From NCBI RefSeq assembly GCF_025847275.1, contig NZ_JAOZEV010000012.1:1-64000 (forward strand): DNA of 64,000 nucleotides, written 5' to 3'. Numbering within the stretch: the stretch's first letter is position 1; the number at the start of each line of letters is the position of its first letter. Positions 16,629 to 39,495 of the stretch are shown here, piece after piece. Origin of the DNA: Flavobacterium frigoritolerans. GTDB lineage: Bacteria; Bacteroidota; Bacteroidia; Flavobacteriales; Flavobacteriaceae. The position numbers were made by a program, and so were the translations under genes. The notes beneath the pieces were generated by a model, which was given only the letters and a program-made list of their open reading frames with translations, made no database searches and was not told the DNA's origin.

Positions 16629-17921
16629 TTATTGGGCTAACCAATTTTTAAGGGTTTTCATTATTTTTTCCTGATCCTGTTCTGGAAAGTTTTTAATTCT
16701 TGTAGCATGACTTCCGCCAGGTAAAACCATTTTTAGAGCATCAAGCTTAGGATTTGGCGTTGGTGAACAAGCTCCCCATGTATCATAACCTCCGTAGATA
16801 TAAAGTATTTTTGAACCTTTATTTTCTACATATTCTCTAACTTTTTTGATATATTTTGGATTGTAATTTGTTTGAACATCTTTAGGTGCAAATCGTGAAT
16901 TTGATGTACTCTTTACTGAAGTTACTAAATCTTTTACTGGTGTAAAATCAAAACCATAATAACCCAATTCGCTCATATGTTGGTAATAAGATGGTAATAA
17001 ATCATGAAAAGTGGCGTCGTTGTAAAAACTAATACCAACTATCTTATTCATATAATCAAACAGTTCTTTTGAAGTGGCATTTTTACTTGGAATATCTTCA
17101 CATTTTCCTCCCCATTGCCAGAAAGAAAAAGGAAATTCCATAGCACTATATTCCAATGCTTCATCCATAGAAACTTCGGTAAAAGTCATTTTTTTAAGTT
17201 CTGCATAAGCTTTTATTTCATTAAGAAGCGCTGTTCTGTTTTGTAGTAATGCACGTTGAAACTCAATTATTTTCTCGCGACATTCTGCAGTTCCTACTGT
17301 TGCAAGATGTTGTTGTATTCTGGGATCTTCTTGTGTATTAATTAATGGAGCTACATAAGGAACTGCAATAGCAACATCTTTTGGGTATTTCGATTTGTAA
17401 ATTAAGGTCGTTTCTCCTCCTTTACTAATTCCAGTTGAAATCCACTTGCCTGTATATAATTGTTTTAGTTTGGTAACTATATTATGATAATCGGCTATAG
17501 CCTGATCGTTGGTTAAGTATTCCCAAGGAATTGGGTTAGGTCTTGATTTTCCATAAAAACGATATTCTACAATAACCTGATTTGCATTTAATAAAGTGCT
17601 TAATTCGGTTTTTGTGTATCGAGCTGCGTACCCTTCTGTTTCAATGATCATTGGACTATTAAAATCTAAATGTGATAAATAGATGTAATGTTTAAACGTT
17701 CCTTTTTTAGGGTTTTTATGATCTAATGGTTCATTAAGAACTAATTGATACGATTCGGTAAATCCTTCCAAATCCTTCATTTTGGTAACCTCAACACCAG
17801 GAAATAATTGGGATAATTTATTCTCTAAATCGGTTTTAATGGCGGTTTCGGTTTGTGCAAAACTCAAACATGAAATGAGGGAAACTACCAGAAGTAATAA
17901 AATGTGTTTTAACTTTTTCAT
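16629..17921 (-). CDS. Secreted S37-like serine peptidase (PS-10 family)
   Basis: 430 residues with a signal peptide (MKKLKHILLLLVVSLISCLSFAQ). It is an alpha/beta hydrolase: 'PLDHKNPKKGTFKHYIYLSHL' is typical for the S37 (PS-10, tripeptidyl aminopeptidase) family, the nucleophile is Ser166 in 'TGISKGGET', and likely acid and base are Asp in 'IYGGYDTWGACSPTP' and His in 'GGSHATR'. It would cut short peptides from N-termini, possibly before or after proline, in the periplasm or outside. Divergent from the 3-hydroxyproline operon; a TAGTTTTG box on the - strand at 17959-17966 fits a -7 element. Confidence 0.78.
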   Translation of the reverse strand: MKKLKHILLLLVVSLISCLSFAQTETAIKTDLENKLSQLFPGVEVTKMKDLEGFTESYQLVLNEPLDHKNPKKGTFKHYIYLSHLDFNSPMIIETEGYAARYTKTELSTLLNANQVIVEYRFYGKSRPNPIPWEYLTNDQAIADYHNIVTKLKQLYTGKWISTGISKGGETTLIYKSKYPKDVAIAVPYVAPLINTQEDPRIQQHLATVGTAECREKIIEFQRALLQNRTALLNEIKAYAELKKMTFTEVSMDEALEYSAMEFPFSFWQWGGKCEDIPSKNATSKELFDYMNKIVGISFYNDATFHDLLPSYYQHMSELGYYGFDFTPVKDLVTSVKSTSNSRFAPKDVQTNYNPKYIKKVREYVENKGSKILYIYGGYDTWGACSPTPNPKLDALKMVLPGGSHATRIKNFPEQDQEKIMKTLKNWLAQ

Positions 17922-18075
17922 TATTTTTAAATTGATTTTTTTATAAAAATATAGCCTTCAAAACTAATCAATTTATACTATATTAACCTTAAGTTGCCTT
18001 ATGTTAACTAGTTCTTTGTGAAATTGGATTTGGAAAAAATAATCTACTATTTTTAGTAAAATTTCAACTTAAAAT

Positions 18076-19050
18076 ATGGAACCTATTCAATTTATTTCAG
18101 ACAATTTCATTGAAGAAAATTGTGATTTTAAAAAACTAATCGAAGGACTTCGTGAGGGATTTTCGACTTCGGCTATAGAAGTACCTCTTCGGCATCATCA
18201 TGATTTTGCTAATCCAGAAGAAAACAAAGATTCAACATTATTATTAATGCCTGCTTTCCAACCGGGAAAAGATTTGGGAGTAAAAATCGTTACTGTAAGT
18301 CCTAATAATGGTAAATATGATTTGCCTTCGATACAAGGAACATACATTTATCTAGATGCTCATAAGGGTAATATTAAAGCTATTCTGGATGCAAAATCCT
18401 TAACGGGCAAAAGAACTGCTGCAACATCTGCATTGGCTAGTAGTTATCTTTCTCGTAAGGACGCTTCGTCTATGCTTATGATTGGAACTGGTGCTTTGGC
18501 TATTAATTTAATTCAGGCGCATGCCAGTGTTCGCCCTATAAAAGAGGTATATGTGTGGGGGAGAACCATACAAAAAGCACAATTGGTTTGCGACGCATTA
18601 AAAGGTTTTCCTTTTACATGTAAAGCAGTTTCTACAATAGAAGAGGTGATATCGCAAGTTGCCATTATTTCTTCGGCAACATTATCTCCTGTTCCGCTTG
18701 TGTTTGGTAAATGGCTTAAAGAAGGACAACATTTGGATTTAGTTGGTGCCTACAAAAAAGATATGCGTGAAGCTGATGATGAAGCAATCCTAAAATCTAG
18801 TGTGTTCCTTGATACCTATCAAGGCGGGCTAAAAGAAAGTGGTGATATATTGATTCCGTTAACTAATGGTATTATTACAAGAGAATCTATTAAGGCAGAT
18901 TTATTTGAATTATGCAGTAATAAAAAAACAGGCAGAACATCTGATACTGAAATCACTTTTTTTAAGTCAGTAGGTCATGCTTTAGAAGATCTTGTTGCCG
19001 CGGCTTATTTTTATAAAGAGTTTAATTTAAAATCAGAAATAAATGTCTAA
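18076..19050 (+). CDS. Delta1-pyrroline-2-carboxylate reductase (ornithine cyclodeaminase family)
   Basis: 324 residues of the ornithine cyclodeaminase/mu-crystallin fold: N-terminal dimer domain with the substrate lysine region 'ILDAKSLTGKRTAATSALAS', Rossmann segment 'MLMIGTGALAINLIQAHAS' (about 134-152), and 'HALEDLVAAAYFY' at the end. The next gene, overlapping it by 8 bp, is a trans-3-hydroxyproline dehydratase, whose product is Delta1-pyrroline-2-carboxylate; LhpI-type members reduce that to L-proline with NAD(P)H. The pairing is the reason for this call over ornithine cyclodeaminase. Confidence 0.82.
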   Translation: MEPIQFISDNFIEENCDFKKLIEGLREGFSTSAIEVPLRHHHDFANPEENKDSTLLLMPAFQPGKDLGVKIVTVSPNNGKYDLPSIQGTYIYLDAHKGNIKAILDAKSLTGKRTAATSALASSYLSRKDASSMLMIGTGALAINLIQAHASVRPIKEVYVWGRTIQKAQLVCDALKGFPFTCKAVSTIEEVISQVAIISSATLSPVPLVFGKWLKEGQHLDLVGAYKKDMREADDEAILKSSVFLDTYQGGLKESGDILIPLTNGIITRESIKADLFELCSNKKTGRTSDTEITFFKSVGHALEDLVAAAYFYKEFNLKSEINV

Positions 19051-20110
19051 AACGTATACTAATATTTGCACCAACACTGAATATAAAATGGCTTCGAATG
19101 CGCTACAAATTAAAACAATTGATATGCATACTGGTGGTGAACCATTGCGTGTTATTGTTTCTGGGTTTCCTGAACTTAAAGGAAATAGTGTATTGGAATA
19201 TCGTCGTGACATAAAAGAAAATTACGATTACTTAAGAACGTCATTGATGTTTGAGCCTCGTGGTCATGCTGATATGTACGGTTGTATTTTGCTTCCGCCA
19301 AATGACGACGATGCCGATTTTGGAATTTTGTTTATGCATAATGAGGGATATAGTAGTATGTGCGGTCACGCTATTATTGCTATTAGTACACTTGCCGCAA
19401 AAATGAATTGGATTAGTATTAAGGAAGGTGAAAATGAATTAAAAATAGATGCTCCTTGTGGTCGTATTTATTCATATGTAAATATAAAAAACAGAGAAGT
19501 AACAGGAGTACGATTTCATTGTGTACCTAGTTTTGTTGTAGGATTGGATCGTATTGTAGATGTTCCGGGTATAGGAAATATTATTTATGATTTGGCGTAT
19601 GGTGGTGCTTTTTATGCTTATGTTGATTTGAGAAAGAATACGAATTTGAACTTTGGTTTGACAGAAGAAGACTACCGTGCTATTATCTTAAGCGGAATTG
19701 ATATAAAACATGCTGTAATGAATCAAGACAAAGAAATTTTGCATCCATTTGAAGATGATTTGAGTTTTCTTTACGGAACTATTTTTATAGATGAACCTCA
19801 GGATATTGTTAATCATAGCAGAAATGTTTGTGTTTTTGCCGATGGTGAAGTCGATCGTTCTCCAACAGGTTCGGGTGTGTCGGGTAGAATCGCTATTGAG
19901 AACGCAAGGAATACTATAAATTTAAATGAATCTATTACGATTGAAAGTATTACCGGAAGTACTTTTAAAGGTTCGCTTGTTGAAGAAAAAGACTTTGGAC
20001 CATTTAAGGCTGTGATTCCACAAGTAGAAGGAACTGCTTTTGTAACTGGCGTAAATACTTTTATTATTGATCCAAAAGATCCTATGAAAAATGGGTTTAT
20101 TTTGAGATAG
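19043..20110 (+). CDS. trans-3-hydroxy-L-proline dehydratase (proline racemase family)
   Basis: 355 residues of the proline racemase fold ('DMHTGGEPLRVIVSG', 'EPRGHADMYG'). The first catalytic residue is Cys107 in 'SSMCGHA', but the second position is Thr275 in 'DRSPTGSGVSGR' instead of Cys. In this family Cys/Cys gives racemase or epimerase, and Cys/Thr marks trans-3-hydroxyproline dehydratases. The start at 19043 overlaps the reductase stop; Met16 (19088) is an alternative closer to the family's usual N-terminus. It dehydrates trans-3-hydroxy-L-proline, an imino acid of collagen. Confidence 0.85.
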   Translation: MSKTYTNICTNTEYKMASNALQIKTIDMHTGGEPLRVIVSGFPELKGNSVLEYRRDIKENYDYLRTSLMFEPRGHADMYGCILLPPNDDDADFGILFMHNEGYSSMCGHAIIAISTLAAKMNWISIKEGENELKIDAPCGRIYSYVNIKNREVTGVRFHCVPSFVVGLDRIVDVPGIGNIIYDLAYGGAFYAYVDLRKNTNLNFGLTEEDYRAIILSGIDIKHAVMNQDKEILHPFEDDLSFLYGTIFIDEPQDIVNHSRNVCVFADGEVDRSPTGSGVSGRIAIENARNTINLNESITIESITGSTFKGSLVEEKDFGPFKAVIPQVEGTAFVTGVNTFIIDPKDPMKNGFILR

Positions 20111-20488: not shown

Positions 20489-21700
20489 ATGACAATTGGA
20501 ATAGGAGGTTCAACCGTTGCTGTTGAGTTAGAAAAAATAGTAAATATGACACTGGATGTAAAACCAATACAAGCAGAGGAATATTTAGGACGAATTAAAA
20601 AAGCAGTTACTATTATGAAGGATATAAAGGTAAAGGCAACATTTGTTAATGCTGGAACGAACCTTTATTATTTTACTGGTACAAAATGGAATCCTTCTGA
20701 AAGAATGGTTGGAGCTTTATTATATGATGATGGAACACTGGATTATATTGTTCCTAAGTTTGAAGAAGGTACTTTTAAAAAGTATATGGAAATTAACGGA
20801 AAAATCAACTGTTGGGAAGAGCATGAATCCCCTTATGCGTTAATGGGAGAATTATTAAAGAATAAAAATATAGATAACGAAACTATCGCTATAGATGAAT
20901 CGGCTCCATATTTTTTAGTCGATGGTGTGATCAAAACAAATCATACATACACTATCGTAAATGCACTTCCAATTACTTCGGGTTGTCGAATGCAAAAATC
21001 GGTTAATGAAATTGCGATTATACAAAAAGCGAAGGACATTACGATGGTAGTACAACGTGCTGCAGCTAGAATATTGCGACCTGGTATTAGCGTTAATGAG
21101 GTTACAGCTTTTATCAACGATGCACATATAAAAGCTGGTGTATCTTCGGGATCGTATTTTTGTATTGTCTTGTTTGCTGATGATACTCAATATCCTCACG
21201 GGGTATCTGTTCCTCAGGATTTAAAAGAAAATGGAGCTGTTATTATAGATACTGGTTGCAGACTAGAAGGGTATCTTTCGGATATTACCAGATCATACGC
21301 TTACGGAACTCCATCTGAAGAATATAAAACGATTTGGAATCTTGAAAAAGCAACACAACGTACCGCTTTTGAAGCTGCTCAAATAGGAGCGACTTGTGGT
21401 TCTGTTGATGATGCTGCCAGAAAAACTCTTGCAGAAGCAGGATTAAGCCCTGATTATAATTTACCGGGATTGCCACACAGAGTAGGGCATGGAACAGGTT
21501 TAGACATTCATGAGTATCCTTATTTGGTACGAGGTAGCGAAATTAAACTTGAAGAAGGAATGGTTGTAAGTAATGAACCGATGATTTGTATTCCAGGAAA
21601 ATTTGGTATTCGTCATGAAGATCATTTTTATATGACTACTAATGGTCCAAAATGGTTTACCGAACCAATGGATAGTGTTGAAAATCCATTTGGGTATTAA
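20489..21700 (+). CDS. M24-family metallopeptidase (Xaa-Pro dipeptidase-like)
   Basis: 403 residues: an N-terminal creatinase-like domain (about 28-160, 'NAGTNLYYFTGTKWNPSER') and a C-terminal pita-bread domain with the five metal ligands in place: Asp in 'AVIIDTGCRL', Asp in 'YLSDITRSYA', His in 'VGHGTGLDIHEYP', Glu in 'VVSNEPMICIPG' and Glu in 'GIRHEDHFYM'. It would cleave Xaa-Pro (or Xaa-Hyp) bonds in the cytosol, freeing imino acids. Same strand as the 3-hydroxyproline genes but separated by 378 bp of repeats, so probably its own unit. Confidence 0.85.
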   Translation: MTIGIGGSTVAVELEKIVNMTLDVKPIQAEEYLGRIKKAVTIMKDIKVKATFVNAGTNLYYFTGTKWNPSERMVGALLYDDGTLDYIVPKFEEGTFKKYMEINGKINCWEEHESPYALMGELLKNKNIDNETIAIDESAPYFLVDGVIKTNHTYTIVNALPITSGCRMQKSVNEIAIIQKAKDITMVVQRAAARILRPGISVNEVTAFINDAHIKAGVSSGSYFCIVLFADDTQYPHGVSVPQDLKENGAVIIDTGCRLEGYLSDITRSYAYGTPSEEYKTIWNLEKATQRTAFEAAQIGATCGSVDDAARKTLAEAGLSPDYNLPGLPHRVGHGTGLDIHEYPYLVRGSEIKLEEGMVVSNEPMICIPGKFGIRHEDHFYMTTNGPKWFTEPMDSVENPFGY

Positions 21701-21764
21701 AATTATTTAAAGTCTTTTAAGATGTTTGAAGTTTAAGCTTTAAATTTTCACGCAGATTTATTAT

Positions 21765-21873
21765 CCTGCAAGGTCTTTTTTGACCTTGTAGGTATGATTA
21801 TTAATATTAAAAACCTGTTGGGTATTTAGTACCGACTATCTATATACCTACAAGGTTTTAAAAACCTTGCAGG
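21765..21873. repeat. Two related hairpins, terminator-like
   Basis: 21765-21792 (CCTGCAAGGT ... ACCTTGTAGG) and 21847-21873 (CCTACAAGGT ... ACCTTGCAGG) are each imperfect palindromes and are inverted copies of each other. They lie between the convergent M24 peptidase and ParB-like genes and could terminate both transcripts; the same word family is a known kind of flavobacterial intergenic repeat (recognition from memory, not tested). Confidence 0.6.
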
Positions 21874-21893
21874 AAATAAGGAAAGTTTAATTT

Positions 21894-22374: not shown

Positions 22375-25300
22375 TTATTTAATTACTAACTTTTTGGTTT
22401 CTTTAATCGTACCATCAGTAAAAACTACATAATAAATACCTGTTGGTAAATGGTTCACATAATAACTAGTTGCATTACGAACTGTATCGATTAAAGCTCC
22501 GGTATTATTATAAATTGAAATGACAAGAGTTGTTGTGTCTATATTCTTAAAGGAGAAATTAACAACATCTGAAGCTGGATTTGGGGAAACTGTAAATGAT
22601 TTTTCATTTTCAACTTCATTAACTCCAAGTGTAGGAGGAAGGGTAACATCCATAGGAGCGCTCCAATCACTTGCACCAGTTGCATATACTGCTCTAATTC
22701 TTATTTTATAGTTTTTTTCTTCACCTTGTTTAGCTATATATTGGTTATAAGTAGTAGATGTTGCAAAATCTGCCCATCCTGTTACTGCGTTATATAATTG
22801 TATTTCATAACTAGTAGCTCCACTAATTAAAGCCCATGTAGCGTAAAAACCATAAGTGTAAGTTCCATTTGTTGGGTCATAAAATACTGGTATTTCAAGA
22901 CCTGGGTTTACATCATCGAAAGTTACTGTTGCAATATTCGAATACGTAGAATATGTTGCATTCTCGTTTGCTCTTACTTTATATGAGTAGCTACTTCCTG
23001 CTGTTAACCCTGTATCTGTATATGAATTTTCATCGGCTCCAAGAGTTGCAATTACGCTGTATGTTCCGTTACCTAAGGCTCTTTCTATAGAGAATCCAGT
23101 TTCGATATCTGAGTTATCATCCCATGTTAAATCAACTTCAAGAGTAGTTGCATTTGCTGTTGCAACAAGATTAGATGGCGCTAGTAATGCTCCAGGAAGA
23201 ATGAAATCTCTAGGAGTGCTCCAGTCACTTGTGCCAGTTGCATTTACAGCTCTCATTCTTACTCTATAACTTGTTTGTGTTCCTTTCTTAGTGATATATA
23301 AGAAATGCTCTGTTGATGTTCCTTGATCAACCCATCCGTCAGTTTCATTATATACCTGAATATCATAACTCGTTGCGCCATTAATTAATCCCCATGTTAC
23401 ATAAAATCCTGTAGCATATATTCCTGTATTACCTTCATTAATTACTGGTTTAGCCAATGTAGGGTTAGGATTTGTATCTTCGATAGTTGCGGTTACAACA
23501 TTCGAATAATCAGAGCTTGTAGCATTCATGTTTGCTTTTATTCTATAAGAATACGCATTTCCTTTTGTTAATCCAGTATCAGTATAAGAAGGGATGTTTG
23601 GGGCAAAAGTTTTGATAACGCTATATGCGCCAGTTCCTTCGGCTCTTTCTAATGTAAAGCCTGTTTCATTATCTGAGTTGTCTACCCATGTTAATGCAAC
23701 CGTAAGTGCTGTTACATTTATTGTTGCTGCCAGATTACTTGGAGCATTAATAATAGGTGTTGTTATAGACTCATTTGGTTTTGTATTATAAGCAAAATTA
23801 GTGATGGTATATCCATTTCCAGTTGCATCTACTTTTACTTTCATCCATCCATAACATATTCTTCCTCTGTTGGTGTATTCAAAACCTACATAACCAGTTT
23901 CGTTATCCCATACATTGTATGCTGCTGTACGTAAATCTAATTGATTAGGATATGCTCCCGGGGCTGTAAAATTACTTGACGATCCTATTGTGCCTCCTGC
24001 AGGAACTTTAGTAATATTTCTTGTTCCAGATTCGCAAACCAATCTTTTACCATAGGTTTCAATTTTTAATGCATTTGCTGCAAATTGCCATGCTCCATAT
24101 TCGGTATTATCTCCAATAGCCAAACTAAACCATTTCCAGTTTGCTGCAGATGAAGCGCTATAATCAGGATTGTCTACATAATAGATTCCAAAAGGAGCCT
24201 CAAATTCTACTTTTATTGTTTTTGATGCATTATCAAGTGTTGTAACTCCACCAGTTATAGCTGCATCTTTAAATGTTACTATTACCGAAGAATTATTATT
24301 AGGTAAGTGAGAAGTTGCCTTTCCTGTGAAAGCAAGTACAGCTTTGGAGTTGTTCTCTAATGTTAAAGTTGCGGTTAATCCAGCTGGAACTCCTGTAATT
24401 GTATAATCAGTACCTGCTGTTAATGCACCTGTACTTTTTGTAAAAGTTCCGTTATTGGTCGATAACGTAATTACGGCATTTGCAGGAACGCTACCATCAT
24501 TATTATCTGATTCATATAACGTACTAGGAGATAATGTTACACCAACTTTTGCAGTTACTCCAGTAGTAATAGGTGAGCCTGGTTGTGTGTTATATGCGTA
24601 TTCAGATATTGTATATCCGTTTCCATCCGCATCTACAGTAACTTTAAACCATCCATAACAAGTCGCGCCCTCAAGTAGATAGTCAAAACCTACATATCCT
24701 GTTTTACCATCCCAAGCTTTGTATGTTGTTGTACGTAAATCCAATTGGTCAGGATATGCTCCTGGAGCTTTAAAATTGCTTGTTGGTCCTACTTGTGTAT
24801 TTGCAGGAAGTAATGAAATATTTCTTGTTCCTGTTTCGCATACTAATTTTTTAGCATAAGTCTCGATCTTTAATGCATTGGCTGCATATCTCCAAGCTCC
24901 AAAAGATGGATCATCTCCTTTTTCTATGTCAAATGCTTTCCATGTAAGTGATGCATTTGCAGTAGCATCAGGCATATCTACGAAGTAAATTCCGTACGGA
25001 TCTACAAATTTAATATCGAAATACATAGCAGTACAGGTCATAGTTGAAGCTCCACCTGAAAAAGCTGCTGGTAAGAATGTAATTGTTCCTTTGGCACTAT
25101 TAGATTTTAAATGACTTGTCGCTTTTCCTGTTAAGGTAACGGTTAATTGAGAATTAGAATTAACTGTAATTACTGGAGTAATTCCTGCAGGAAAGTTATG
25201 AGTGAAATGTGTTCCAGATGCAAGTGTTCCAGATGCAAGTGCAAATGTTTCTGTTCCTGAAAGGGTAATTACTGGTGCAGCATCAAATGAACCATCGTTT

Positions 25301-26372: not shown

Positions 26373-26740
26373 TTTTTATATTAAATTATGTAGTTATACT
26401 ATTTTATTCGTTTATGATATGAAATTATCTATAAATTATGTTTAAAATTTCATTATGTATTTTTATTCTTATAAAATGATGAATATTTCTCATTTTGCGA
26501 ATATTGGCTTTGAATAATAATTATTATCGAGTGTAACTCTATAAGACGGCATCTAGCATATTGAAGCATAGATTTTATGCGTAAAAAAGAATACCAAAAA
26601 ATAAAATATTTCTTTAACAGCCTTGTTTGCTATGTGGATTTTGAATAAGTGAAACGTCTTTTTTAGAGTTTGTAAAATCTATATGTTAAAAAGTTTGTAT
26701 CCAACTGCTTAATAATAAACTATTAAATTAGGCATAAAAA

Positions 26741-31467: not shown

Positions 31468-31985
31468 ATACTGGTTTTATTATTAATAAGTGCAAATATT
31501 TTGCATTTATAGCTTTTTTTATGCCAATATATTATCATAAACTCAGATTATATTATCTTGTTTTGAGTATATTTTATTTTTAATTTATTGTGTTTTCTAG
31601 ATTTGAAAGTATTTGTTTACTAAATGGTTCTTTATTTGTTTTATTGAAAAAATTACGGGATAATATTTACTAAAATAATAAGGTGTAAATAGGGGATAAA
31701 TGGCATATATTATGCATATTTATTTAGAAAAACTGGACAATTATTTATGTGTGATTTTGACAAAAAAGAAGCTAGATTTGAGTTTTATAAAATTTAATTT
31801 TTCAAGTAAAGTCGCAAAGTTTACAGGTTATTTTTTTTCGTCTTTGCGACCTTGCGAGAGATTTATAAGCAAAGTATTATCTTGATTTATAAACAGGAAA
31901 TAATTAAAATAAATTCAAAAAAAAACAGTTACAAAATTGCTCTTGTAACTGTTAAAATTAATAGTCCTAAAAGGAGGGTATAAGA
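31468..31985. other. 518-bp gene-free stretch upstream of susC
   Basis: No gene. It contains the susC leader and promoter region, a near-palindrome TGCAAATATTTTGCA about 25 bp before the susC ATG, a degenerate copy of the 'GTCGCAAAG ... CTTTGCGACCTTGCG' intergenic repeat (about 31810-31856), and the terminator of the aminopeptidase P operon (31924-31953). A short open frame at 31700-31885 is AT-rich and not gene-like. Confidence 0.6.
31924..31953 (-). terminator. Intrinsic terminator of the hydroxyproline/aminopeptidase operon
   Basis: An 11-bp perfect stem (AACAGTTACAA / TTGTAACTGTT) with an 8-nt loop, preceded by an A-run on the + strand; 33 bp past the aminopeptidase P stop codon on the - strand. 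Confidence 0.75.
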
Positions 31986-33281
31986 CTATTTTTTTTGAAT
32001 AAGTCTTTCTATATCTTCAATCTCTATAGGTAATGCTTCTGAAAGATTGATGTTACCATTATCTGTGAGCAGGTAATCATTTTCTAATCGACAACCGATT
32101 TCCTCTTCAGGTATATAAATTCCAGGTTCGCAGGTAAGCACCATTCCTTTTTCTAAAATGCGAGAATACAATCCCACATCATGAACATCTAGTCCTAGAT
32201 GATGGGCTGTTCCGTGCATAAAATATTTTTTATAAGCTGGAGAATCTGGTTTTTGATTAGCTATATCTTCGTTGGTAATTAATCCAAGTTTAATTAGTTC
32301 TTTTTCAACCAAAGCAGCCATTTGTTTTTCGTAATCACTATGTTTGATACCAGGTTTTAATAACTTAGAACCTTCTTTTAAACAATGTAAAACAGACGAA
32401 TATACTTCTCGCTGACGAGGAGAAAATACTCCATTTACAGGAACACATCTGGTAGTATCTGAATTATAATTGGCGTAACAAACACCAAAGTCAACCAAAA
32501 CCATTTGATCGTCTTTACAAACGGTATCATTAGAATTATAATGTAGGGCACATGCATTTTTTCCAGCAGCAATAATTGGTTTAAAAGCATGACGTGTAGC
32601 ACCATTTTTTATTAGCTCGTAAACAAGTTCGGCTTCTAATTCAAATTCATTTATGTTTGGTTTAATAGCACTAAGAAGGCCTTCGAAGCCTTTAACGCTA
32701 ATAGCTACTGCTTTTTTTATAAGACTAACTTCTTCTTCAGACTTTATTGGTCTTAATTCACGGGTAATTTTTGCAGCTCGATCGTATTGATGTAATGGAT
32801 ATTTTTCTTTGCACCATTGTATCATTCGGTCTTGTCGAGTGACCATTTCGGATGTAATTCTTTTAATGTGTTCATTGTGACCCAAATAAAAGGTATCAGC
32901 TTCAAAAGCAAAAAGCTGCAATGTCTTTTCGTATTCATGAACCCATTTTACATTTTTTATACCCGAAATTGCTGTTGCTTCATCTTTGGTCAAAAAATCC
33001 CCATCCCAAAGTTTAGTATGTTCGCTTACTTCTTTTACAAATAAAACAGCTCGATTTTCTTCTTTATATGCATCTGGATAAAGAACCAAAATAGTTTCGT
33101 CCTGATCAATTCCTGTTAAATAGAATAAATCATTGTTTTGTGCAAACCCCATAACATCATCTGCATTATTAGGCATTACATCATTAGAAACTAAAATAGC
33201 CAAGCTATTTGGGCTCATTTTTTTCGAAAAGCGTTTTCTGTTTTCGATAAATAAAGAAGAAGGAATCGATTCGTATCTCAT
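31986..33281 (-). CDS. pepP: Xaa-Pro aminopeptidase (aminopeptidase P, M24B)
   Basis: 431 residues, full length for bacterial PepP. N-terminal AMP_N domain (about 5-140, 'NNDLFYLTGIDQDETILVLYPD') and catalytic domain with Asp in 'MVLVDFGVCYANYNSDTTR', Asp three turns later, His in 'MHGTAHHLGLDVHDVG', Glu in 'VLTCEPGIYIPEEEIGCRLENDYL'. It removes the residue before a proline at the N-terminus of cytosolic peptides. It is the last gene of the - strand hydroxyproline cluster, 5 bp after the FAD dehydrogenase, which ties proline-peptide cleavage to imino-acid catabolism. Confidence 0.93.
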   Translation of the reverse strand: MRYESIPSSLFIENRKRFSKKMSPNSLAILVSNDVMPNNADDVMGFAQNNDLFYLTGIDQDETILVLYPDAYKEENRAVLFVKEVSEHTKLWDGDFLTKDEATAISGIKNVKWVHEYEKTLQLFAFEADTFYLGHNEHIKRITSEMVTRQDRMIQWCKEKYPLHQYDRAAKITRELRPIKSEEEVSLIKKAVAISVKGFEGLLSAIKPNINEFELEAELVYELIKNGATRHAFKPIIAAGKNACALHYNSNDTVCKDDQMVLVDFGVCYANYNSDTTRCVPVNGVFSPRQREVYSSVLHCLKEGSKLLKPGIKHSDYEKQMAALVEKELIKLGLITNEDIANQKPDSPAYKKYFMHGTAHHLGLDVHDVGLYSRILEKGMVLTCEPGIYIPEEEIGCRLENDYLLTDNGNINLSEALPIEIEDIERLIQKK

Positions 33282-33286
33282 AAATT

Positions 33287-34522
33287 TTATAATTGAAACA
33301 TTTGTGTATTAACGGAGGTGTTTTTTCCAGAAATAATTTCTGAAACAATTTTACCAGTTGCAGGTGCCAAACTTAATCCCATCATGGCATGTCCAGTTGC
33401 CAAAGTTAAGTTTTTTATTCTTTTATCTCTAGCAATTATTGGCATTCCCGATGGAGTGCAAGGTCTGAATCCGTACCATGTTTCTTTTTCTTTGGGCATT
33501 TCAATCTTTAAGTCAGGGTAAAAATCATTGATACTATTAACAATTCCCTGAACTCTATTTTGGTTGATTTTGGTATCGTTAGTATGAGTAATTTCCATTG
33601 TACCTCCAAAACGAATATCATTGTTCATAGGAGTCACAGCAACTTTTCCTTCGCATAGAATTGCTGGGATAGAAGGTTTTTTACTCATATCTTTTAAAGT
33701 AAAGCTATATCCTTTTCCTGGTAGAATAGAAATAGATCTATTTAATTTTTTGGCAATATTTGGGCTCCATGATCCAGTTGCTAAAACAACTTCGTCGGTC
33801 ATAAAAGGCCCCATGTCGGTAAGTATTTCGGTAACAGTATTGTTTTTTATTACAAAATCTTCAACTAGGGTTCTATTGTGAATTGTTACATTCAATCTAC
33901 TCAACTCTGCTTTTATAAATTGCATGAATTTTTGAGGATAGATATGCGCATCACTTTTATAATGTACACCGCCTAATACATCAGTTTTAGTGCCTTTTTC
34001 TAGTTTAGTTACTTCATCTTTAGAAAGGTAATCTACTTCTAAACCAAAACATTCAGCTAATTTTCCTTCATGATTAATTTCTTCGGCTGTTTTCTCTGTT
34101 TTATAAAGCATTAGGAGTCCTTTTTTTTCATAAAAAAAAGAATTATTTTCTTTGATAAAATCTTGATATAGCTCTTTACTAAAAAGGGATAAATTACAAA
34201 GTGCTGGCATTGCTTTTTCTACATGTTGTTTATTGGCATGTTTGTAAAATTGTAATCCCCATTTTGCCAAATCCATACTTAATCTGGGTTTTACATAAAA
34301 CGGACTTTGACTATCAAACATCCATTTTATCCCTTGAGTAATCATCCCTGGTTGTGCCAACGGAATAATATGTGAAGGAACTATCATTCCTGCATTCCCA
34401 TAAGAACAACCATCTGTCATATCCGATTTATCGAAAATAACCACCTGATATCCTTCTTTTGCTAAATAATATGCTGAACATAGTCCGATTATTCCTCCAC
34501 CAATAATGCTTACTTTTTTCAT
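33287..34522 (-). CDS. FAD-dependent D-hydroxyproline dehydrogenase (DadA-like)
   Basis: 411 residues of the DAO/DadA family: FAD-binding 'IIGGGIIGLCSAYYLAKEG' (about 6-24), 'CSYGNAGMIVPSHIIPLAQPGM' type loop, and C-terminal 'TWYGFRPCTPSGMPIIARD' and 'GHAMMGLSLAPATGKI'. In the known trans-4-hydroxyproline pathway this enzyme oxidises cis-4-hydroxy-D-proline (product of the epimerase encoded just upstream, 77 bp) to Delta1-pyrroline-4-hydroxy-2-carboxylate. Single-subunit type, probably membrane-associated and feeding the respiratory chain. Generic D-amino acid dehydrogenase is the alternative, but context favours hydroxyproline. Confidence 0.85.
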   Translation of the reverse strand: MKKVSIIGGGIIGLCSAYYLAKEGYQVVIFDKSDMTDGCSYGNAGMIVPSHIIPLAQPGMITQGIKWMFDSQSPFYVKPRLSMDLAKWGLQFYKHANKQHVEKAMPALCNLSLFSKELYQDFIKENNSFFYEKKGLLMLYKTEKTAEEINHEGKLAECFGLEVDYLSKDEVTKLEKGTKTDVLGGVHYKSDAHIYPQKFMQFIKAELSRLNVTIHNRTLVEDFVIKNNTVTEILTDMGPFMTDEVVLATGSWSPNIAKKLNRSISILPGKGYSFTLKDMSKKPSIPAILCEGKVAVTPMNNDIRFGGTMEITHTNDTKINQNRVQGIVNSINDFYPDLKIEMPKEKETWYGFRPCTPSGMPIIARDKRIKNLTLATGHAMMGLSLAPATGKIVSEIISGKNTSVNTQMFQL

Positions 34523-34599
34523 TATACTTATAAATTTATAAAATCATTGATACGAATTATGTTCTGTAAAACAATGATTTGTTTTGAATTATATTTTTA

Positions 34600-35610
34600 T
34601 TAAATTACTTGAAAACCAAATGCATAAGGATCTTCATCTTCATCAATGATTATATTGTTGTATCCATATACTTTTGCCCATCCTTGTATGCTTGGAACAA
34701 TAGCTTTTATATCTCCAATAGTAGTTTCTTCTTCGACTCTTCCTATAAATTTGCTGCCAATAAAACTTTCGTGTATATAATCTTCCCCTTTTTTTAGTTT
34801 GCCCTTTGCGTGAAGCTGAGCAAGTCTAGCTGATGTTCCAGTTCCACAAGGAGAACGATCTATGGCTTTGTCACCATAAAAAACAGCATTTCTTCCTGAT
34901 GATGTAGGGTCTATAGGATCGCCTGTCCATAACATATGACTTACATCGCGAATAGTATCATTTTCTGGATGGATGAAAAAGTTAGGATACTTTTCGTTAA
35001 TTCGCTTGCGAACTTCCTGACTGTATTGAACAATTTTTCCTGCTGTAAAATTCTGTATTCCCGAAAAATTGGTTTGCGGATCTACTATTGCATAATAATT
35101 TCCGCCATAAGCTACATCAAAAACTATTTCGCCCAATTCAGGACAATCCACAGTAAGACCTTCTGCAGCTAAGTATGATTTAACATTGGTTAATCGTACC
35201 CAGTCTACTTTTTTTCCTGTTTGTTGGTATTCAATCTGAACCAAACCAGCAGGAGCTTCCATTTTTATCTTACCTGGAATTTTTGGAGTTACCAATCCTT
35301 CTTCAATAGCGATAGTTATCGTCCCGATAGTTCCGTGACCGCACATTGGCAAACAGCCAGATGTTTCGATAAATAAGATTCCAAAATCATTATTAGGATC
35401 ACTTGGTGGATAAAGTATGCTGCCGCTCATCATATCATGACCTCGAGGTTCAAACATTAGTCCTTTTCGGATCCAATCGTACTCTTTTAAGAAATGTTGG
35501 CGTTTCTCACTCATGTTGTTCCCAACCAAATTCGGACCGCCTCCAGCAACCACTCTCACTGGGTTACCGCAGGTATGTGCATCGACACAAAAAAAAGTTT
35601 TTCTTGGCAT
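34600..35610 (-). CDS. 4-hydroxyproline 2-epimerase
   Basis: 336 residues of the proline racemase family, with both catalytic cysteines: Cys90 in 'LPMCGHGT' and Cys255 in 'DRSPCGTGTS'. 'DAHTCGNPVRVVAGG' at the N-terminus and the aldehyde dehydrogenase, dehydrogenase and deaminase neighbours identify it as hydroxyproline 2-epimerase (trans-4-hydroxy-L-proline to cis-4-hydroxy-D-proline) rather than proline racemase. Its Cys/Cys pair contrasts with the Cys/Thr pair of the paralogue at 19043-20110. Only 3 bp separate it from the aldehyde dehydrogenase stop. Confidence 0.92.
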   Translation of the reverse strand: MPRKTFFCVDAHTCGNPVRVVAGGGPNLVGNNMSEKRQHFLKEYDWIRKGLMFEPRGHDMMSGSILYPPSDPNNDFGILFIETSGCLPMCGHGTIGTITIAIEEGLVTPKIPGKIKMEAPAGLVQIEYQQTGKKVDWVRLTNVKSYLAAEGLTVDCPELGEIVFDVAYGGNYYAIVDPQTNFSGIQNFTAGKIVQYSQEVRKRINEKYPNFFIHPENDTIRDVSHMLWTGDPIDPTSSGRNAVFYGDKAIDRSPCGTGTSARLAQLHAKGKLKKGEDYIHESFIGSKFIGRVEEETTIGDIKAIVPSIQGWAKVYGYNNIIIDEDEDPYAFGFQVI

Positions 35611-35613
35611 ATA

Positions 35614-37197
35614 CTAAATAGGTTTGTTGGTTATTATATCATTTACGGTTCTGGTAATATTTAAAGGATTTTTATTTTGTAATGCACTAGGTAATAACTC
35701 GTCTGGCCAATTTTGGTAACTAAACGGGCGTACCCAGCGTTTAACCGCATGAATTCCTACAGCTGTAAATCGTGAGTCAGATGAAGCAGGATAGGGGCCA
35801 CCATGAATCATCGAAGCACACACTTCGACACCAGTAGGTACTCCATTAAAAATTAATCTTCCGACTCTGTTCTGTAAAGCATCTACAACTGCATTATAAT
35901 TAGAAAGTTCCATTGGCTCAGCAATTATAGTTCCTGTTAACTGTCCGTCTAATTTATTAATTATTGTTAGCAATTCCTCATTATTTTTACATTGAACAAT
36001 AATAGAAAATGGACCAAAAACTTCATGGCTTAAAGCAGGGTTTTCTAAGAAGGTTTTACCATCTACAGTGAGTATTGTTTGTGGAGCATAATTTGGAGCG
36101 ATTTCTCCCTTATATTCAGCAACAGTACTTACTCCGTTTTGCGATTGTATCTTCTCTTTTCCATTATTAAAATCAGCTTTGATTGATGGATGCAACATAC
36201 AAGAGGGAGCTATTTTTTCAATTTCTTCTGCTAATTGATCTATAAATTGATTTAATTTTTCTCCTTTTATCCCTAAAAGTAATCCTGGATTAGTACAAAA
36301 CTGACCTGTTCCTAATGTTATTGAACCTGCATAGGCAGCTGCCCATTTTTTACTGTTTTTTTCTAATGCATCAGGTAATATAACCACAGGATTAATGCTT
36401 CCCATTTCGGCAAATACAGGAATAGGTTCCGGACGTTGTGAAGCCAAATCAAATAAAGCTCTACCACCATTAATACTTCCTGTAAAACCTACAGCTTTTA
36501 CAAGCGGATGTTTTACCAAGCTTGTTCCGAGTGTTACTCCGCTACCAATTAAGTTGGAGAAAACGCCTTCGGGAATATTGTTCTTTTTTGCTGCTTTTAT
36601 GACTGCGGAGGCAACCATTTCGCCTGTTCCGATATGCATCGAATGACTTTTTACGATTACTGGACAGCCTGCTGCCAAAGCTGAAGCGGTATCACCGCCT
36701 GCAGTAGAAAATGCAAATGGAAAATTACTCGAGCCGAAAACAACAACTGGTCCTAATGGAACTAGCATTTTACGTAAATCGTCTTTTGGTAAAGGCAATC
36801 TATCCGGAATAGAAGTATCTATTGTTGCTTCGAGCCAGCTTCCTTCAGTTAGCATGTTTGCAAAAGTACGTAATTGAAAAATTGTGCGTCCGCGTTCTCC
36901 TTCGGCTCTGCCTTTTGGATATCCTGATTCTGAGCAATATACTTCTAGTAATTCATCGCCAAGAGCGAGAATTTCTTCGGCAATAGCATTTAAAAAATCA
37001 GCCTTTTTTTGTGCTGGATAATTTTTATAAATTTTAAACGCATCATTTGCCAGAGCAACAGCTTCATTTATTTCCTCAGGAGTTGCTTCTATAAACGACC
37101 AAGGATTTTCTATATTCAACTGAGGATTTATTGTTTTATATATTTTAGTTCCTGCTGCTTTAAGCTGACTTCCTATATAATTTTTTCCTGTAATCAT
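35614..37197 (-). CDS. 2-oxoglutarate semialdehyde dehydrogenase (NADP+-type ALDH)
   Basis: 527 residues from ATG 37197; the frame is open 33 codons further upstream but that part is not ALDH-like. Catalytic Glu264 in 'FAEMGSINP' and Cys301 in 'GTGQFCTNPG', cofactor region 'VVVFGSSNFPFAFS' and 'VGFTGSINGGRAL'. The sequence belongs to the long KGSADH group seen in hydroxyproline and pentose/glucarate pathways. It oxidises 2-oxoglutarate semialdehyde, formed by the deaminase encoded upstream, to 2-oxoglutarate for the TCA cycle. Confidence 0.9.
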   Translation of the reverse strand: MITGKNYIGSQLKAAGTKIYKTINPQLNIENPWSFIEATPEEINEAVALANDAFKIYKNYPAQKKADFLNAIAEEILALGDELLEVYCSESGYPKGRAEGERGRTIFQLRTFANMLTEGSWLEATIDTSIPDRLPLPKDDLRKMLVPLGPVVVFGSSNFPFAFSTAGGDTASALAAGCPVIVKSHSMHIGTGEMVASAVIKAAKKNNIPEGVFSNLIGSGVTLGTSLVKHPLVKAVGFTGSINGGRALFDLASQRPEPIPVFAEMGSINPVVILPDALEKNSKKWAAAYAGSITLGTGQFCTNPGLLLGIKGEKLNQFIDQLAEEIEKIAPSCMLHPSIKADFNNGKEKIQSQNGVSTVAEYKGEIAPNYAPQTILTVDGKTFLENPALSHEVFGPFSIIVQCKNNEELLTIINKLDGQLTGTIIAEPMELSNYNAVVDALQNRVGRLIFNGVPTGVEVCASMIHGGPYPASSDSRFTAVGIHAVKRWVRPFSYQNWPDELLPSALQNKNPLNITRTVNDIITNKPI

Positions 37198-37543
37198 TTT
37201 TTGTATGTTTAAGATTATAATTGAATCCGGACTTGCTAAAAAAATATTATGTTTTATGAGCTGGCTATCATCACAAAATAACCAGCTCAAAAACAAACCA
37301 AACTAAAAACAAATCAACTTTTAAAAAAAAAGTATTTTTAATCCCGTTGGTTTTGAATTGCAAAGTTTTATTCGACACTTAGAGTTGTGTGTTTTGTTTT
37401 GCTGCAGATTTTATAGATTAAAACGATTCAGCTTTTTAATCTTTTAGTCTGGGCAATTTTTTTTAAAATGTCTTTAGAACTTTACAATAAATAATTTCAA
37501 ATTTTTAATAAAAAATCTGTTTATAAACCAACGGGGTATATTT
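37198..37543. other. 346-bp stretch inside the hydroxyproline cluster
   Basis: No gene. A hairpin (TGAGCTGG at 37257-37264, complement 37282-37289, extendable with one mismatch) sits about 60 bp before the dehydrogenase ATG. An 11-bp inverted pair CCCGTTGGTTT (37343-37353) / AAACCAACGGG (37525-37535) brackets the stretch, the right arm lying just after the deaminase stop. The gap suggests a second promoter or attenuation point inside the cluster. Confidence 0.55.
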
Positions 37544-38464
37544 TTATAGTACTATCGATTTATAATCAGGGAGCGTAGGTCTTGTACGTAAGCCTTCTGC
37601 AATAATTGCCAAAACTCTTTCTCTTTCGGCTCCATGAAGTGGTAATCTCGGGGCACGAACATGTTCTGTTCCCAGACCTGTAGCTACTTCAGCTAATTTT
37701 ATGTTTTGTACCAAAAGCGGATTAATATCCAATTCTAATAAAGGCAAGAACCATCTATAAATAGCCAATGCTTCTTCGGCTCTTCCTGCTTTTGCTAATT
37801 TGAAAATCGCTACTGTTTCTGCTGGAAATGCATCTACTAGACCCGAAACCCATCCATCAGACCCCATAAAAATACTTTCTAATGCTAGAGTATCAACACC
37901 AGACAATACTTTTAAACGGCCTTTAAAACGATTTATAATTCGGGTTACATTTGATATGTCTCTGGTAGATTCTTTTACCGCTTGAATATTATCGAATTTC
38001 AAAATTTCTTCGAACATATCCAATGAAACGTCAATTTTATAATCGATAGGATTGTTGTAAATCATGATAGGAAGCGAAGTGCTTTTTGCCACTTCAGAGA
38101 AATAGGTAACTGTTTCATGACTAGCTGCATTGTAACGCATAGGAGGTAATAACATTAATCCTTTAGCACCATTTTCTTCGGCTTTATTAGCAGCAAGAAT
38201 TGCAGCCCGCGTAGTTTGTTCGGCTATATTCATGATCACTGGAACTTGTCCGTTAACGATGTTAATAGTCTCTTTGATCAATTCTTTTTTCTCATCTTCT
38301 AATAGCGTGCTTGCTTCTCCAAGAGTTCCTCCCAGAATAATTCCAGAAACACCAGCTTCAAGCTGCGCTTTTACATTTACTTCAAACATATTGAAGTCTA
38401 ATTTGTCATCGGCAGTAAACTTTGTTGTAACTGCTGGCATAACGCCTTTCCATTGAATACTCAT
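37544..38464 (-). CDS. Delta1-pyrroline-4-hydroxy-2-carboxylate deaminase (DHDPS/NAL family)
   Basis: 306 residues from ATG 38464. Dihydrodipicolinate-synthase fold with 'GGTLGEASTLLEDEK' , Tyr136 in 'IMIYNNP' and Schiff-base Lys164 in 'AVKESTRD'. The sequence alone fits several lyases, but the flanking epimerase, FAD dehydrogenase and semialdehyde dehydrogenase define the LhpC-type deaminase: Delta1-pyrroline-4-hydroxy-2-carboxylate to 2-oxoglutarate semialdehyde and ammonia. First gene of the - strand cluster, divergent from the AraC regulator; a TATTTTTG box on the - strand at 38486-38493 is a candidate -7. Confidence 0.88.
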   Translation of the reverse strand: MSIQWKGVMPAVTTKFTADDKLDFNMFEVNVKAQLEAGVSGIILGGTLGEASTLLEDEKKELIKETINIVNGQVPVIMNIAEQTTRAAILAANKAEENGAKGLMLLPPMRYNAASHETVTYFSEVAKSTSLPIMIYNNPIDYKIDVSLDMFEEILKFDNIQAVKESTRDISNVTRIINRFKGRLKVLSGVDTLALESIFMGSDGWVSGLVDAFPAETVAIFKLAKAGRAEEALAIYRWFLPLLELDINPLLVQNIKLAEVATGLGTEHVRAPRLPLHGAERERVLAIIAEGLRTRPTLPDYKSIVL

Positions 38465-38485
38465 AATTACGATTTTAATTTTTTT

Positions 38486-38493
38486 CAAAAATA
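38486..38493 (-). promoter_or_regulatory. Candidate -7 box of the hydroxyproline cluster
   Basis: TATTTTTG on the - strand matches TAnnTTTG 21 bp before the deaminase ATG. There is no clear -33 TTG, consistent with a promoter needing the divergently encoded AraC activator (inference). Confidence 0.35.
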
Positions 38494-38607
38494 TTTATAA
38501 CCTGTAAATATGTAATTAGGTAAGTTATCATAAAAAGATACTATATTATCCGATTTAATGCTAATTTTTAAAAATATTACTTAATATCTATATGTTTTTT
38601 TATATTT

Positions 38608-39495
38608 ATGGCATATAATTTATCTGTTATGAAAGTATTTCCATTTAAAATTCCAAAAACTAAAGAAGATTCACTAATTTATCAAGAGGATGTAGAGTTT
38701 GTTTTTTATGATAAATTACATCAACACGAAGAAATTCAAATAAGCTATATTGAAAATGGTGAAGGAACCATTTTTGTAGGCGACACTATTTCTCCATATC
38801 AAAAAGGAGATATTGTCGTCATAGGAAGTAATTTACCACACGTGTTTAGAAGTGAAACCAATACAAATGAGTTATCAGTTATGTTAACATTGTTTTTTAC
38901 ATCTAATTCCTTTGGAAAAGATTTCTTTATGCTGCCTGCTTTAAAAGACATCCAGCCTTTTTGGGAAAATAGCAAAAACGGATTTGTAGTTAATAATCCT
39001 TCTAATAAGGTCGTTAAGTGTTTTAAGAAAATTAAAAAAGTAAATGAATTTGATCGTTTTATTCTGTTTTTAGAAATAACTAAGAAACTTTCTCAAGATA
39101 AGAAGGTGCCACTTTCTAGTTATATCTATGATAAGAAAATTACAGATAATGAAGGTAAGCGTATGCAAACGGTTTTTGAATATGTAATGACTAATTTTCA
39201 GAAGAATATTACCCTCGAGGAAATTGCTGCTTTATCGAATATGACTAAAAATGCTTTTTGCAAATATTTTAAAGTCCGGACGAACAAGACTTTTTTTCAG
39301 TTCCTGATAGAAATACGGATTGAGCGGGCCGGGAAGCTATTATCCCGGTCCCAAGAGCTTTCGGTTTTAGAAGTTTCTGAATTATGCGGGTTTAATAATA
39401 TTTCTAATTTTAATCGAAAATTCAAAGAAATTAAAGGGATTTCTCCCTTGGCTTATAGGAAATCCCAAATGCTAAAATGGAAACAAAAAGTATAA
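38608..39495 (+). CDS. AraC-family transcriptional regulator
   Basis: 295 residues (start 38608; Met8 at 38629 is an alternative). N-terminal cupin-like ligand domain with 'HQHEEIQISYIENGEGTIFVGD' and 'GDIVVIGSNLPHVF', C-terminal double HTH with 'NITLEEIAALSNMTKNAFCKYFK' and 'VLEVSELCGFNNISNFNRKFK'. It is divergent from the hydroxyproline catabolic genes and shares their 143-bp promoter gap, so it most likely senses an imino acid and activates them. Confidence 0.9.
   Translation: MAYNLSVMKVFPFKIPKTKEDSLIYQEDVEFVFYDKLHQHEEIQISYIENGEGTIFVGDTISPYQKGDIVVIGSNLPHVFRSETNTNELSVMLTLFFTSNSFGKDFFMLPALKDIQPFWENSKNGFVVNNPSNKVVKCFKKIKKVNEFDRFILFLEITKKLSQDKKVPLSSYIYDKKITDNEGKRMQTVFEYVMTNFQKNITLEEIAALSNMTKNAFCKYFKVRTNKTFFQFLIEIRIERAGKLLSRSQELSVLEVSELCGFNNISNFNRKFKEIKGISPLAYRKSQMLKWKQKV

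Follow-up and report, generated by a model that had tools for sequence, protein, structure and literature searches.

A probable collagen-peptide utilization locus of Flavobacterium with the layout of a polysaccharide utilization locus

Gene organization of the locus

The locus lies between positions 16629 and 39495 of the window (the whole 64-kb stretch of Flavobacterium frigoritolerans DNA analysed, to which all positions refer), where open reading frames and family matches, considered gene by gene, located every gene named in an earlier sequence-only reading. At its left end is a secreted S37 peptidase of the PS-10 family (16629..17921, minus strand; Pfam PF05576, 208 bits against a cut-off of 27), whose translation displays a GISKG serine motif and a signal-like N-terminus. 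Three genes on the plus strand follow, encoding a Δ1-pyrroline-2-carboxylate (P2C) reductase of the ornithine-cyclodeaminase family (18076..19050; NCBIfam NF004793, 375.9 bits, cut-off 322), a probable trans-3-hydroxy-L-proline (3-Hyp) dehydratase of the proline-racemase family (19043..20110; PF05544) and a prolidase-like M24 Xaa-Pro peptidase (20489..21700; PF00557, PF01321). The minus strand then carries a secreted metalloprotease of the M43 family that bears fn3 domains and a T9SS sorting tail (22375..26337; PF05572, PF00041, PF18962), in which TIGR04183 scores above cut-off, the nearest solved structure is mirolysin and the active-site pattern HEXXHXXNXXH is kept as HEFGHYLNLIH, Asn being the residue found at that position in this group. 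Thus, the S37-like peptidase, the T9SS-exported M43 protease and, with the one described below, the two M24 Xaa-Pro peptidases that had been predicted are all matched by Pfam models or motifs.

Next on the minus strand is a tandem susC-susD pair, the two genes being 11 bp apart and both products scoring above cut-off: a SusD-like surface lipoprotein (26804..28261; PF12771, 440.6 bits) with a lipobox-like SC at residues 19-20, belonging to the SusD-like_2 class, which we take to be equivalent to IPR041662, and a SusC/RagA TonB-dependent importer (28273..31467; TIGR04056, 611 bits, cut-off 368). The SusC protein finds its best solved chain in BT_2264 (5fq6_B, E 4e-115), a peptide importer, so that its kinship with peptide-importing SusC proteins is established; the nearest solved relative of the SusD is instead 5j5u, its solved relatives being mostly glycan-type or unassigned, and BT_2263 ranks low among its matches (E 3e-20). 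Set against RagAB and BT2263-2264, the idea of a RagAB-type SusCD is supported by sequence for SusC, whereas the SusD is a weak match. An AlphaFold model of SusD built from 13 orthologues was too poor to be informative on peptide binding (mean pLDDT 48).

The catabolic genes, also on the minus strand, comprise an aminopeptidase P-type M24 peptidase (31986..33281; PF05195, PF00557), matched by Xaa-Pro aminopeptidase structures and displaying no recognizable signal peptide, a FAD-dependent D-amino-acid dehydrogenase, from its context probably acting on D-hydroxyproline (33287..34522; PF01266), a 4-hydroxyproline (4-Hyp) epimerase (34600..35610), an aldehyde dehydrogenase that is probably an alpha-ketoglutarate semialdehyde dehydrogenase (35614..37296; PF00171) and a DHDPS-family protein whose role is suggested by context (37544..38488; PF00701). 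Judging from the translations, the start codons of the last two are probably internal to the open reading frames, near 37197 and 38464, respectively. An AraC-family regulator with a cupin domain (38608..39495, plus strand; PF12833, PF07883) closes the locus.

A Pfam scan revealed no carbohydrate-active enzymes among the proteins encoded between 14563 and 45596, so that the locus was not filed as a polysaccharide locus. For an S9 (DPP-IV-type) gene, which in many type-A relatives sits between SusC and M24, tblastn gave only chance-level matches in the window. The M9 collagenase (PF01752) is absent from this genome and was found in just one of the 58 genomes searched, being absent in 57; the substrate claim is therefore limited to peptides of collagen or gelatin and does not extend to native collagen.

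The two predicted hydroxyproline pathways

Only two members of the proline-racemase family were found in this genome, namely the epimerase, with the Cys/Cys signature MCGH/DRSPCG, and the dehydratase, with the Cys/Thr signature MCGH/DRSPTG, as seen in translations and alignments. For the 3-Hyp route expected from the sequence-only reading, the reductase scores above its cut-off and the dehydratase is probable from its signature, its best NCBIfam model being the dehydratase, albeit at 369 bits against a cut-off of 540, with 6r76 and 7qpo as PDB matches. The claim of a complete 4-Hyp pathway holds for the epimerase, which passes NF010578 (594.6 bits, cut-off 376); the other three proteins belong to the right Pfam families and stay below the NCBIfam cut-offs, be it those of the D-amino acid dehydrogenase models, that of 2,5-dioxovalerate dehydrogenase, the top model for the aldehyde dehydrogenase and far from reached (nearest solved structure 3v4c), or that of dapA. 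DAO lies beside the core in 18 of 20 loci of other families. The P2C reductase was considered as a marker of 3-Hyp use and rejected; several relatives' loci have it without the dehydratase.

Operator-like sites

A 26-bp pattern of tandem half-sites has exactly two matches in the 4.8-Mb genome, one before susC (31532..31557, plus strand), the other between the catabolic operon and araC (38525..38550, plus strand). The pattern recurs in relatives: 64 of the 69 exact matches across 56 genomes fall, when placed by coordinates, in these loci or in relocated modules, against a single match for the reversed-pattern control; of the five matches elsewhere, one precedes a SusC gene in a genome that lacks the epimerase. 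This rare site, common to the catabolic and susC operons, together with the adjoining araC, makes the two operons candidates for co-regulation on sequence grounds.

Weaker copies occur on the plus strand between the S37 and P2C reductase genes (17976..18008, half-sites spaced by 21 bp; score 13.4) and before M43 (26397..26429; score 11.9). The former does not by itself exceed resampled sequence, 21 bp being the best spacing in 11 of the 13 such promoters scored; the latter is not significant alone in the window and, among 24 promoters, 21 bp has the top mean score, yet most single promoters favour another spacing. The type-B DHDPS promoters carry an ACTATATTACC word, but a spacing other than 21 bp scores best in them. 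A regulatory link of the S37/3-Hyp block and of M43 to the rest of the locus may thus be suggested, but weakly.

Conservation and mobility in relatives

The 4-Hyp epimerase is present in 63 of 398 genomes. All 27 Flavobacterium genomes having an orthologue of the SusD (at least 70% identity) also possess it, and in 26 of them the two genes lie within 14 kb of each other; in the 27th (G328), the module consisting of regulator, peptidase, SusCD and M43 is intact but relocated. Because it recurs in relatives, the layout is more than chance, and linkage of the gene blocks, one of the checks that the sequence-only reading had set for itself, is borne out; the proposed arrangement of a polysaccharide utilization locus adapted to peptides, with tandem susC-susD next to peptidases and hydroxyproline enzymes, is supported. 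Conservation is not complete: SusCD is missing from four and the 3-Hyp dehydratase from 12 of the 31 type-A genomes, the S37/3-Hyp block is mobile and, in 10 of the 26 genomes having both, the 3-Hyp gene is far from the 4-Hyp epimerase or on another contig. Independent evolutionary contrasts are few.

An unlinked cassette, probably for glycosylated hydroxylysine

Elsewhere in the genome there is a three-gene cassette encoding a glucosidase-like enzyme, a GH42 protein and a fusion of an APH-kinase with a class-III-aminotransferase-type lyase domain (own-genome copy 82% identical), for which NCBIfam yields general models only, below cut-off, and which would act on hydroxylysine. Of 33 genomes carrying type-A genes, 29 have the cassette, as against none of the 19 having only type-B or type-C genes (p 1.2e-10, a value to be read with caution), the only type-B genomes that contain it being exactly the two that hold relocated type-A genes. 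Collagen hydroxylysine carries alpha-Glc-1,2-beta-Gal (PMC11012932), and the composition of the cassette fits a breakdown of glucosyl-galactosyl-hydroxylysine. In Tenacibaculum-like genomes with the 3-Hyp gene, the fusion is found in 7/7, the glucosidase-like enzyme in 4/7 and GH42, at the threshold used, in 0/7.

Possibly exchangeable front ends

The same 4-Hyp core adjoins GH127 together with other enzymes in 13 loci of Flavobacterium and in 19 of another 46 that were tested, which suggests plant Hyp-rich glycoproteins as the substrate in those relatives. This different front end in other species had escaped the sequence-only reading. None of 32 genomes with a GH127 locus contains the 3-Hyp dehydratase, as against 43 of 75 without such a locus (Fisher p 1e-9); split by front-end type, it occurs in 25 of 37 vs 0 of 21 (Fisher p 1.3e-7). 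These associations are not relied on, since trees give only 4 and 1 independent pairs behind them, respectively. The putative plant module contains GH127, DUF885, DUF5695 and another SusCD; the putative collagen module contains M43, SusCD, S9 and M24, and the genomes that have it would also catabolize 3-Hyp and glucosyl-galactosyl-hydroxylysine. Type-A names are presumably often those of fish isolates and type-B names those of plant or rhizosphere isolates, F. bizetiae, which we take to be a fish isolate of type B, being an exception.

We give about even chances to a broader proposal, in which a single hydroxyproline core, controlled through a single AraC-type operator, would serve exchangeable front ends for collagen and for plant Hyp-glycoproteins, the collagen module being mobile as a unit and both modules being able to coexist in a genome that has one epimerase. 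The genes together would then allow a bacterium to degrade every modified residue of collagen, glycosylated hydroxylysine included.

Proposed function and alternative explanations

The locus is probably devoted to the utilization of collagen or gelatin peptides. The secreted M43 and S37 peptidases would cleave a proline-rich protein outside the cytoplasm and the resulting oligopeptides would be bound by SusD and imported by SusC; the two M24 peptidases, helped in many relatives by the DPP-IV-type S9, would then release proline and hydroxyproline. 4-Hyp would pass in turn through the epimerase, the D-Hyp dehydrogenase, the deaminase and the semialdehyde dehydrogenase and end as alpha-ketoglutarate, whereas the dehydratase and the P2C reductase would turn 3-Hyp into proline. 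AraC may act on the tandem half-sites, 21 bp apart, that precede the catabolic operon and susC and, less certainly, S37/P2C reductase, and the unlinked cassette probably removes glucose and galactose from hydroxylysine before degrading the latter.

Could the Hyp enzymes be just one use, among several, of an importer and peptidases that handle proline-rich or any oligopeptides in general? M24, S9 and S37 peptidases act on proline in many proteins, the P2C reductase is present without the dehydratase in several loci, and the homologous locus of F. collinsii has been annotated simply as an oligopeptide PUL (PMC10132118). Nevertheless, the sharing of a rare operator by SusCD and the 4-Hyp catabolic operon, the constant presence of the epimerase alongside the SusD orthologue and the cassette travelling together with the type-A genes render this unlikely. 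Even less credit is due to the possibility that the locus feeds on extensin-like Hyp-rich glycoproteins of plants or algae and not on animal collagen, as the GH127-bearing relatives probably do. The same core does sit beside GH127 in those relatives, and 4-Hyp alone cannot separate the two substrates; GH127, however, is absent from both the window and the type-A loci, the dehydratase is lacking from the genomes with a GH127 locus, and the hydroxylysine-type cassette follows type A, not B or C. Finally, the divergent strands, the gaps of 378-518 bp between blocks, the mobility of the S37/3-Hyp block and the type-A genomes devoid of SusCD might indicate that the protease/SusCD, 3-Hyp and 4-Hyp blocks are functionally separate neighbours that met by chance, a very improbable explanation in view of the 26/27 linkage, the relocation of a whole module and the common operator. 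The collagen reading is on the contrary supported by these same three features and by the co-occurring cassette.

Relation to known systems

The TRV642_0198-0209 PUL of F. collinsii, in which a SusCD with a SusD of IPR041662 likewise stands beside S9, S37, M24 and M43 peptidases and for which oligopeptide uptake was predicted, most likely corresponds to the present locus in a different species; the SusCD-peptidase part is already in print, although that paper mentions neither hydroxyproline nor collagen, nor an operator, nor a link with 3-Hyp, 4-Hyp or hydroxylysine (PMC10132118). The 21-kb collagen cluster of Colwellia BB5 also comprises a secreted protease, a TonB receptor, a 4-Hyp epimerase with downstream Hyp genes, and peptidases; this organism, however, is a gammaproteobacterium with an M9 collagenase, SusCD and 3-Hyp dehydratase go unmentioned in the excerpted description, and M43, SusCD, S37 and the AraC regulator are on the Flavobacterium side (PMC7883544). 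In F. psychrophilum, import of collagen oligopeptides by a SusCD (THC0290_2100/2101) was similarly proposed alongside a collagenase, the link being co-expression, with no reference to hydroxyproline in that paper (PMC9723704). A neighbourhood survey of the proline racemase superfamily describes, in a passage on Bacilli, genes of the racemase family next to peptidase genes and to genes of the ornithine-cyclodeaminase family, as here, but makes no mention there of Bacteroidetes, TonB or SusC (PMC4113996). Beyond these papers, no published account of the present reading was found in the literature searched.

Collagen is an abundant animal protein whose uptake by Bacteroidota is little worked out in that literature, and the locus would carry the principle of the polysaccharide utilization locus over from glycans to one modified protein. 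The 3-Hyp dehydratase, the three-gene cassette and the 26-bp operator would represent signatures separating probable collagen users from probable users of plant glycoproteins, and may serve as such in genomes and metagenomes, including those of fish-associated bacteria.

Gene content of the locus

The sequence-only reading had proposed a locus for the utilisation of collagen or proline-rich protein at 16629-39495, and every gene that it named was recovered at its position by ORF calling and profile searches. Just two members of the proline-racemase family were found in the 4.8-Mb genome, one with the Cys/Cys signature of a 4-hydroxyproline (4-Hyp) epimerase and the other with the Cys/Thr signature of a probable 3-Hyp dehydratase. 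The epimerase and the pyrroline-2-carboxylate (P2C) reductase pass the curated NCBIfam cut-offs; the 3-Hyp dehydratase, the D-amino-acid dehydrogenase (DAO), the DHDPS-like protein and the aldehyde dehydrogenase (ALDH) fall below them, so that the roles of these four lean on context. SusC lies above its cut-off, and among solved structures it is closest to the peptide importer BT_2264; SusD is less telling, its top solved match being 5j5u with BT_2263 far lower in the list. The M43 protease has an intact zinc motif and ends in a T9SS tail.

The genome encodes a further SusCD belonging to the same class (L242, G000:C12:204109-205563), its SusD being 53% identical to that of the window; no peptidase or Hyp gene was recognised in the 20 kb inspected around it. 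P2C reductase genes are also present at L076, L100, L232 and L234, in genomes devoid of 3-Hyp dehydratase, where the enzyme may serve D-proline instead.

Linkage and exchange of the front end in Flavobacterium

Proline-racemase family matches were obtained in 65 of 398 Flavobacterium genomes, the present one included; 63 of these have the 4-Hyp epimerase, one has the 3-Hyp dehydratase alone and one gives a weak match. Each of the 27 genomes with a SusD orthologue of at least 70% identity also has the epimerase, and in 26 of them the two genes lie within 14 kb of each other; the gene blocks are thus not unlinked in all relatives, the outcome that would have spoken against a common locus. Weaker SusD homologues (47–61%, matches at E 1e-130) sit elsewhere, one of them in the window's genome, the exception being a homologue of 55% in genome G047, which sits at the epimerase locus.

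When the surroundings of the epimerase (up to 20 kb) were taken from the other 62 genomes and sorted by neighbouring genes, the protease, importer and glycosidase genes beside the core (the front end) fell into distinct types. Type A, that of the window, is defined by an M43 and/or SusCD closely related to those found there, and comprises 31 genomes, our own included, with SusCD in 27; six variants have mostly S9 and M24 without the window's SusCD or a typical M43; type B (13 genomes) has GH127 and an S9 peptidase, usually with DUF885 and DUF5695; type C (8 genomes) has another SusCD, M61, DUF885 and S9. Three genomes have no clear front end and two loci are interrupted by contig ends. Four type-A loci (L065, L076, L118 and L121) have M43 and no SusCD at the locus or close SusD elsewhere. 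The type-C loci (L062, L063, L067, L069, L087, L101, L105 and L113) also have a second DAO-like gene and an amino-acid permease; GH127, 3-Hyp dehydratase and the glycosidase cassette discussed below are absent from all eight.

Genomes of other families (n=19) yielded 20 loci, of which 18 have DAO and two a SusC in the stretch; at three loci from the same order, SusCD was found once. Since the core alone is common in these families, the SusCD-protease front end looks like an addition in this Flavobacterium lineage.

The core adjoins GH127, DUF885, S9 and often DUF5695 at L073, L077, L079, L088, L103 and other type-B loci, and the same arrangement recurs at L182, L183, L193, L210, L214, L218 and L220-L222, several having an upstream SusCD of the SusD_RagB class. 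Judging from GH127, such loci would possibly serve plant or algal Hyp-rich glycoproteins; the nearest solved relatives of GH127 include β-L-arabinofuranosidases, but the top one, 5opj, has other titles, so that a pectic substrate is also possible for type B. In a comparison of L073 with L064 and the window, the epimerase and DAO of L073 are 97% and 85% identical to those of the window, compared with ~90% and ~78% in many type-A loci, whereas its ALDH (62%) and AraC (58%) are more distant; this mosaic core suggests recombination.

The type-A module can move as a unit. In genome G328 the epimerase locus is of type B and an intact type-A module lies ~2 Mb away (L245, G328:C1:3203000-3222900), consisting of AraC, DHDPS-like, M24, S9, SusC, SusD, M43 and M24 genes; it has its own AraC and DHDPS-like gene and lacks epimerase, DAO and ALDH. 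Another type-B genome, G142, has a second set of AraC, DHDPS-like, M24, S9 and M43 genes without SusCD.

A probable shared operator

In promoter alignments two half-sites spaced by 21 bp are conserved ahead of both the catabolic operon (38525..38550) and susC (31532..31557), and TTAYCNNAAANNNNNNNTATATTAYC is matched exactly twice in the window's genome, at these two places. The AraC regulator encoded alongside would bind these tandem half-sites. In 56 genomes of our own choice (31 type A, 6 variants, 5 of the 13 type B, 4 of the 8 type C and 10 without epimerase) the pattern yielded 69 matches and the reversed pattern, used as control, one; by coordinates, 64 of the 69 fall within the two relocated modules or loci of type A, type C or the variants, and five elsewhere. 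Presence at type-A promoters is partly circular, because the pattern was derived from them, but this does not apply to the relocated modules, to the type-C sites, which precede SusC in 4/4, or to how rare the pattern is elsewhere. The pattern is wholly absent from two of the six variants, and a third has it solely away from the locus.

A matrix trained on type-A sites scores at least 12 before the S9-GH127 operon in 8/13 type-B loci and before SusC in 5/8 type-C loci, single scores near 15 being weak since shuffled 64-kb windows (20 trials) reach 17.5. Outside the training set, 11 of the 13 S37-P2C reductase or S37-M24 promoters that could be scored fit best with a 21-bp spacing (15 were collected, two being too short); with M43 promoters (n=24) this spacing tops the mean score, most individual promoters favoring another spacing. 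The window's own S37/P2C reductase (13.4) and M43 (11.9) sites show no excess over resampled sequence.

A co-travelling glycosidase cassette

A GH63/YgjK-like glycosidase, a GH42 β-galactosidase and an APH kinase-class-III aminotransferase fusion are encoded just after, or close to, the 3-Hyp genes in five of the six variants. Human hydroxylysine breakdown employs an APH-type kinase and a class-III-aminotransferase-like phospho-lyase. The three genes would fit the breakdown of glucosyl-galactosyl-hydroxylysine, collagen hydroxylysine being described as bearing α-glucosyl-1,2-β-galactose (PMC11012932).

Complete cassettes (three genes within 6 kb) are found in 27/31 type-A genomes, including our own (G000:C44:288210-295004, outside the window), in 5/6 variants, 0/8 type C, 0/4 others and 1/6 genomes without epimerase, as well as in 2/13 type B, exactly the two that hold relocated type-A genes; the cassette thus accompanies type-A genes in 29/33 genomes, compared with 0/19 having type B or C only. 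In 14 genomes, the window's not among them, cassette and epimerase are no more than 40 kb apart. GH42 homologues of 45–51% are frequent in every type, those of the cassette being solely the ones of at least 78%. In Tenacibaculum-like genomes and those of Polaribacter the fusion, aligned over its lyase half alone, occurs in 7/7 with 3-Hyp dehydratase and 0/2 without; a glucosidase-like enzyme is present in four of the seven and GH42 in none. No fusion was found in three marine GH127 genomes. The dehydratase itself occurs in 0/32 genomes with a GH127 locus versus 43/75 without. Because types B and C each form one clade in the trees, and type A nearly so, such counts are not independent events (independent pairs for dehydratase against front-end type number 1 and 4), and the best independent support is offered by the two type-B genomes having both relocated type-A genes and cassette.

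Substrate of the locus

Several observations weigh against a simple collagen locus. M9 collagenase is absent from the window's genome and from 57 of 58 genomes searched, so that the opening of native collagen may fall to M43 or to other organisms. The 3-Hyp gene is apart from the epimerase in 10/26 genomes (on another contig in seven, far away in three), 12/31 type-A genomes lack the dehydratase and four lack SusCD, and the cassette is unlinked to the window's locus. Genome G017, without epimerase, has an exact operator match ~245 bp before SusC (L250, near 8536) and the cassette on another contig, and is not explained by a simple model.

The homologous locus of F. collinsii was published as an oligopeptide PUL with S9, S37, M24 and M43 peptidases; that account deals with neither hydroxyproline nor collagen (PMC10132118). 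Accounts of other systems describe a collagen utilisation cluster of Colwellia with M9 collagenase and 4-Hyp genes (PMC7883544), a co-induced SusCD and collagenase of F. psychrophilum, proposed for feeding on collagen peptides (PMC9723704), robust growth of Tenacibaculum mesophilum on fish-skin gelatin (PMC12565237), and the founder of family S37, listed as cleaving after proline (PMC9147577). The literature searched yielded no account of a tie to both hydroxyproline routes, of the operator, of the co-travelling cassette or of front-end exchange.

Taken as a strong inference, with collagen or proline-rich protein as putative substrate, the original proposal is supported, and the locus would represent a variant of the PUL kind directed at a modified protein rather than a glycan.
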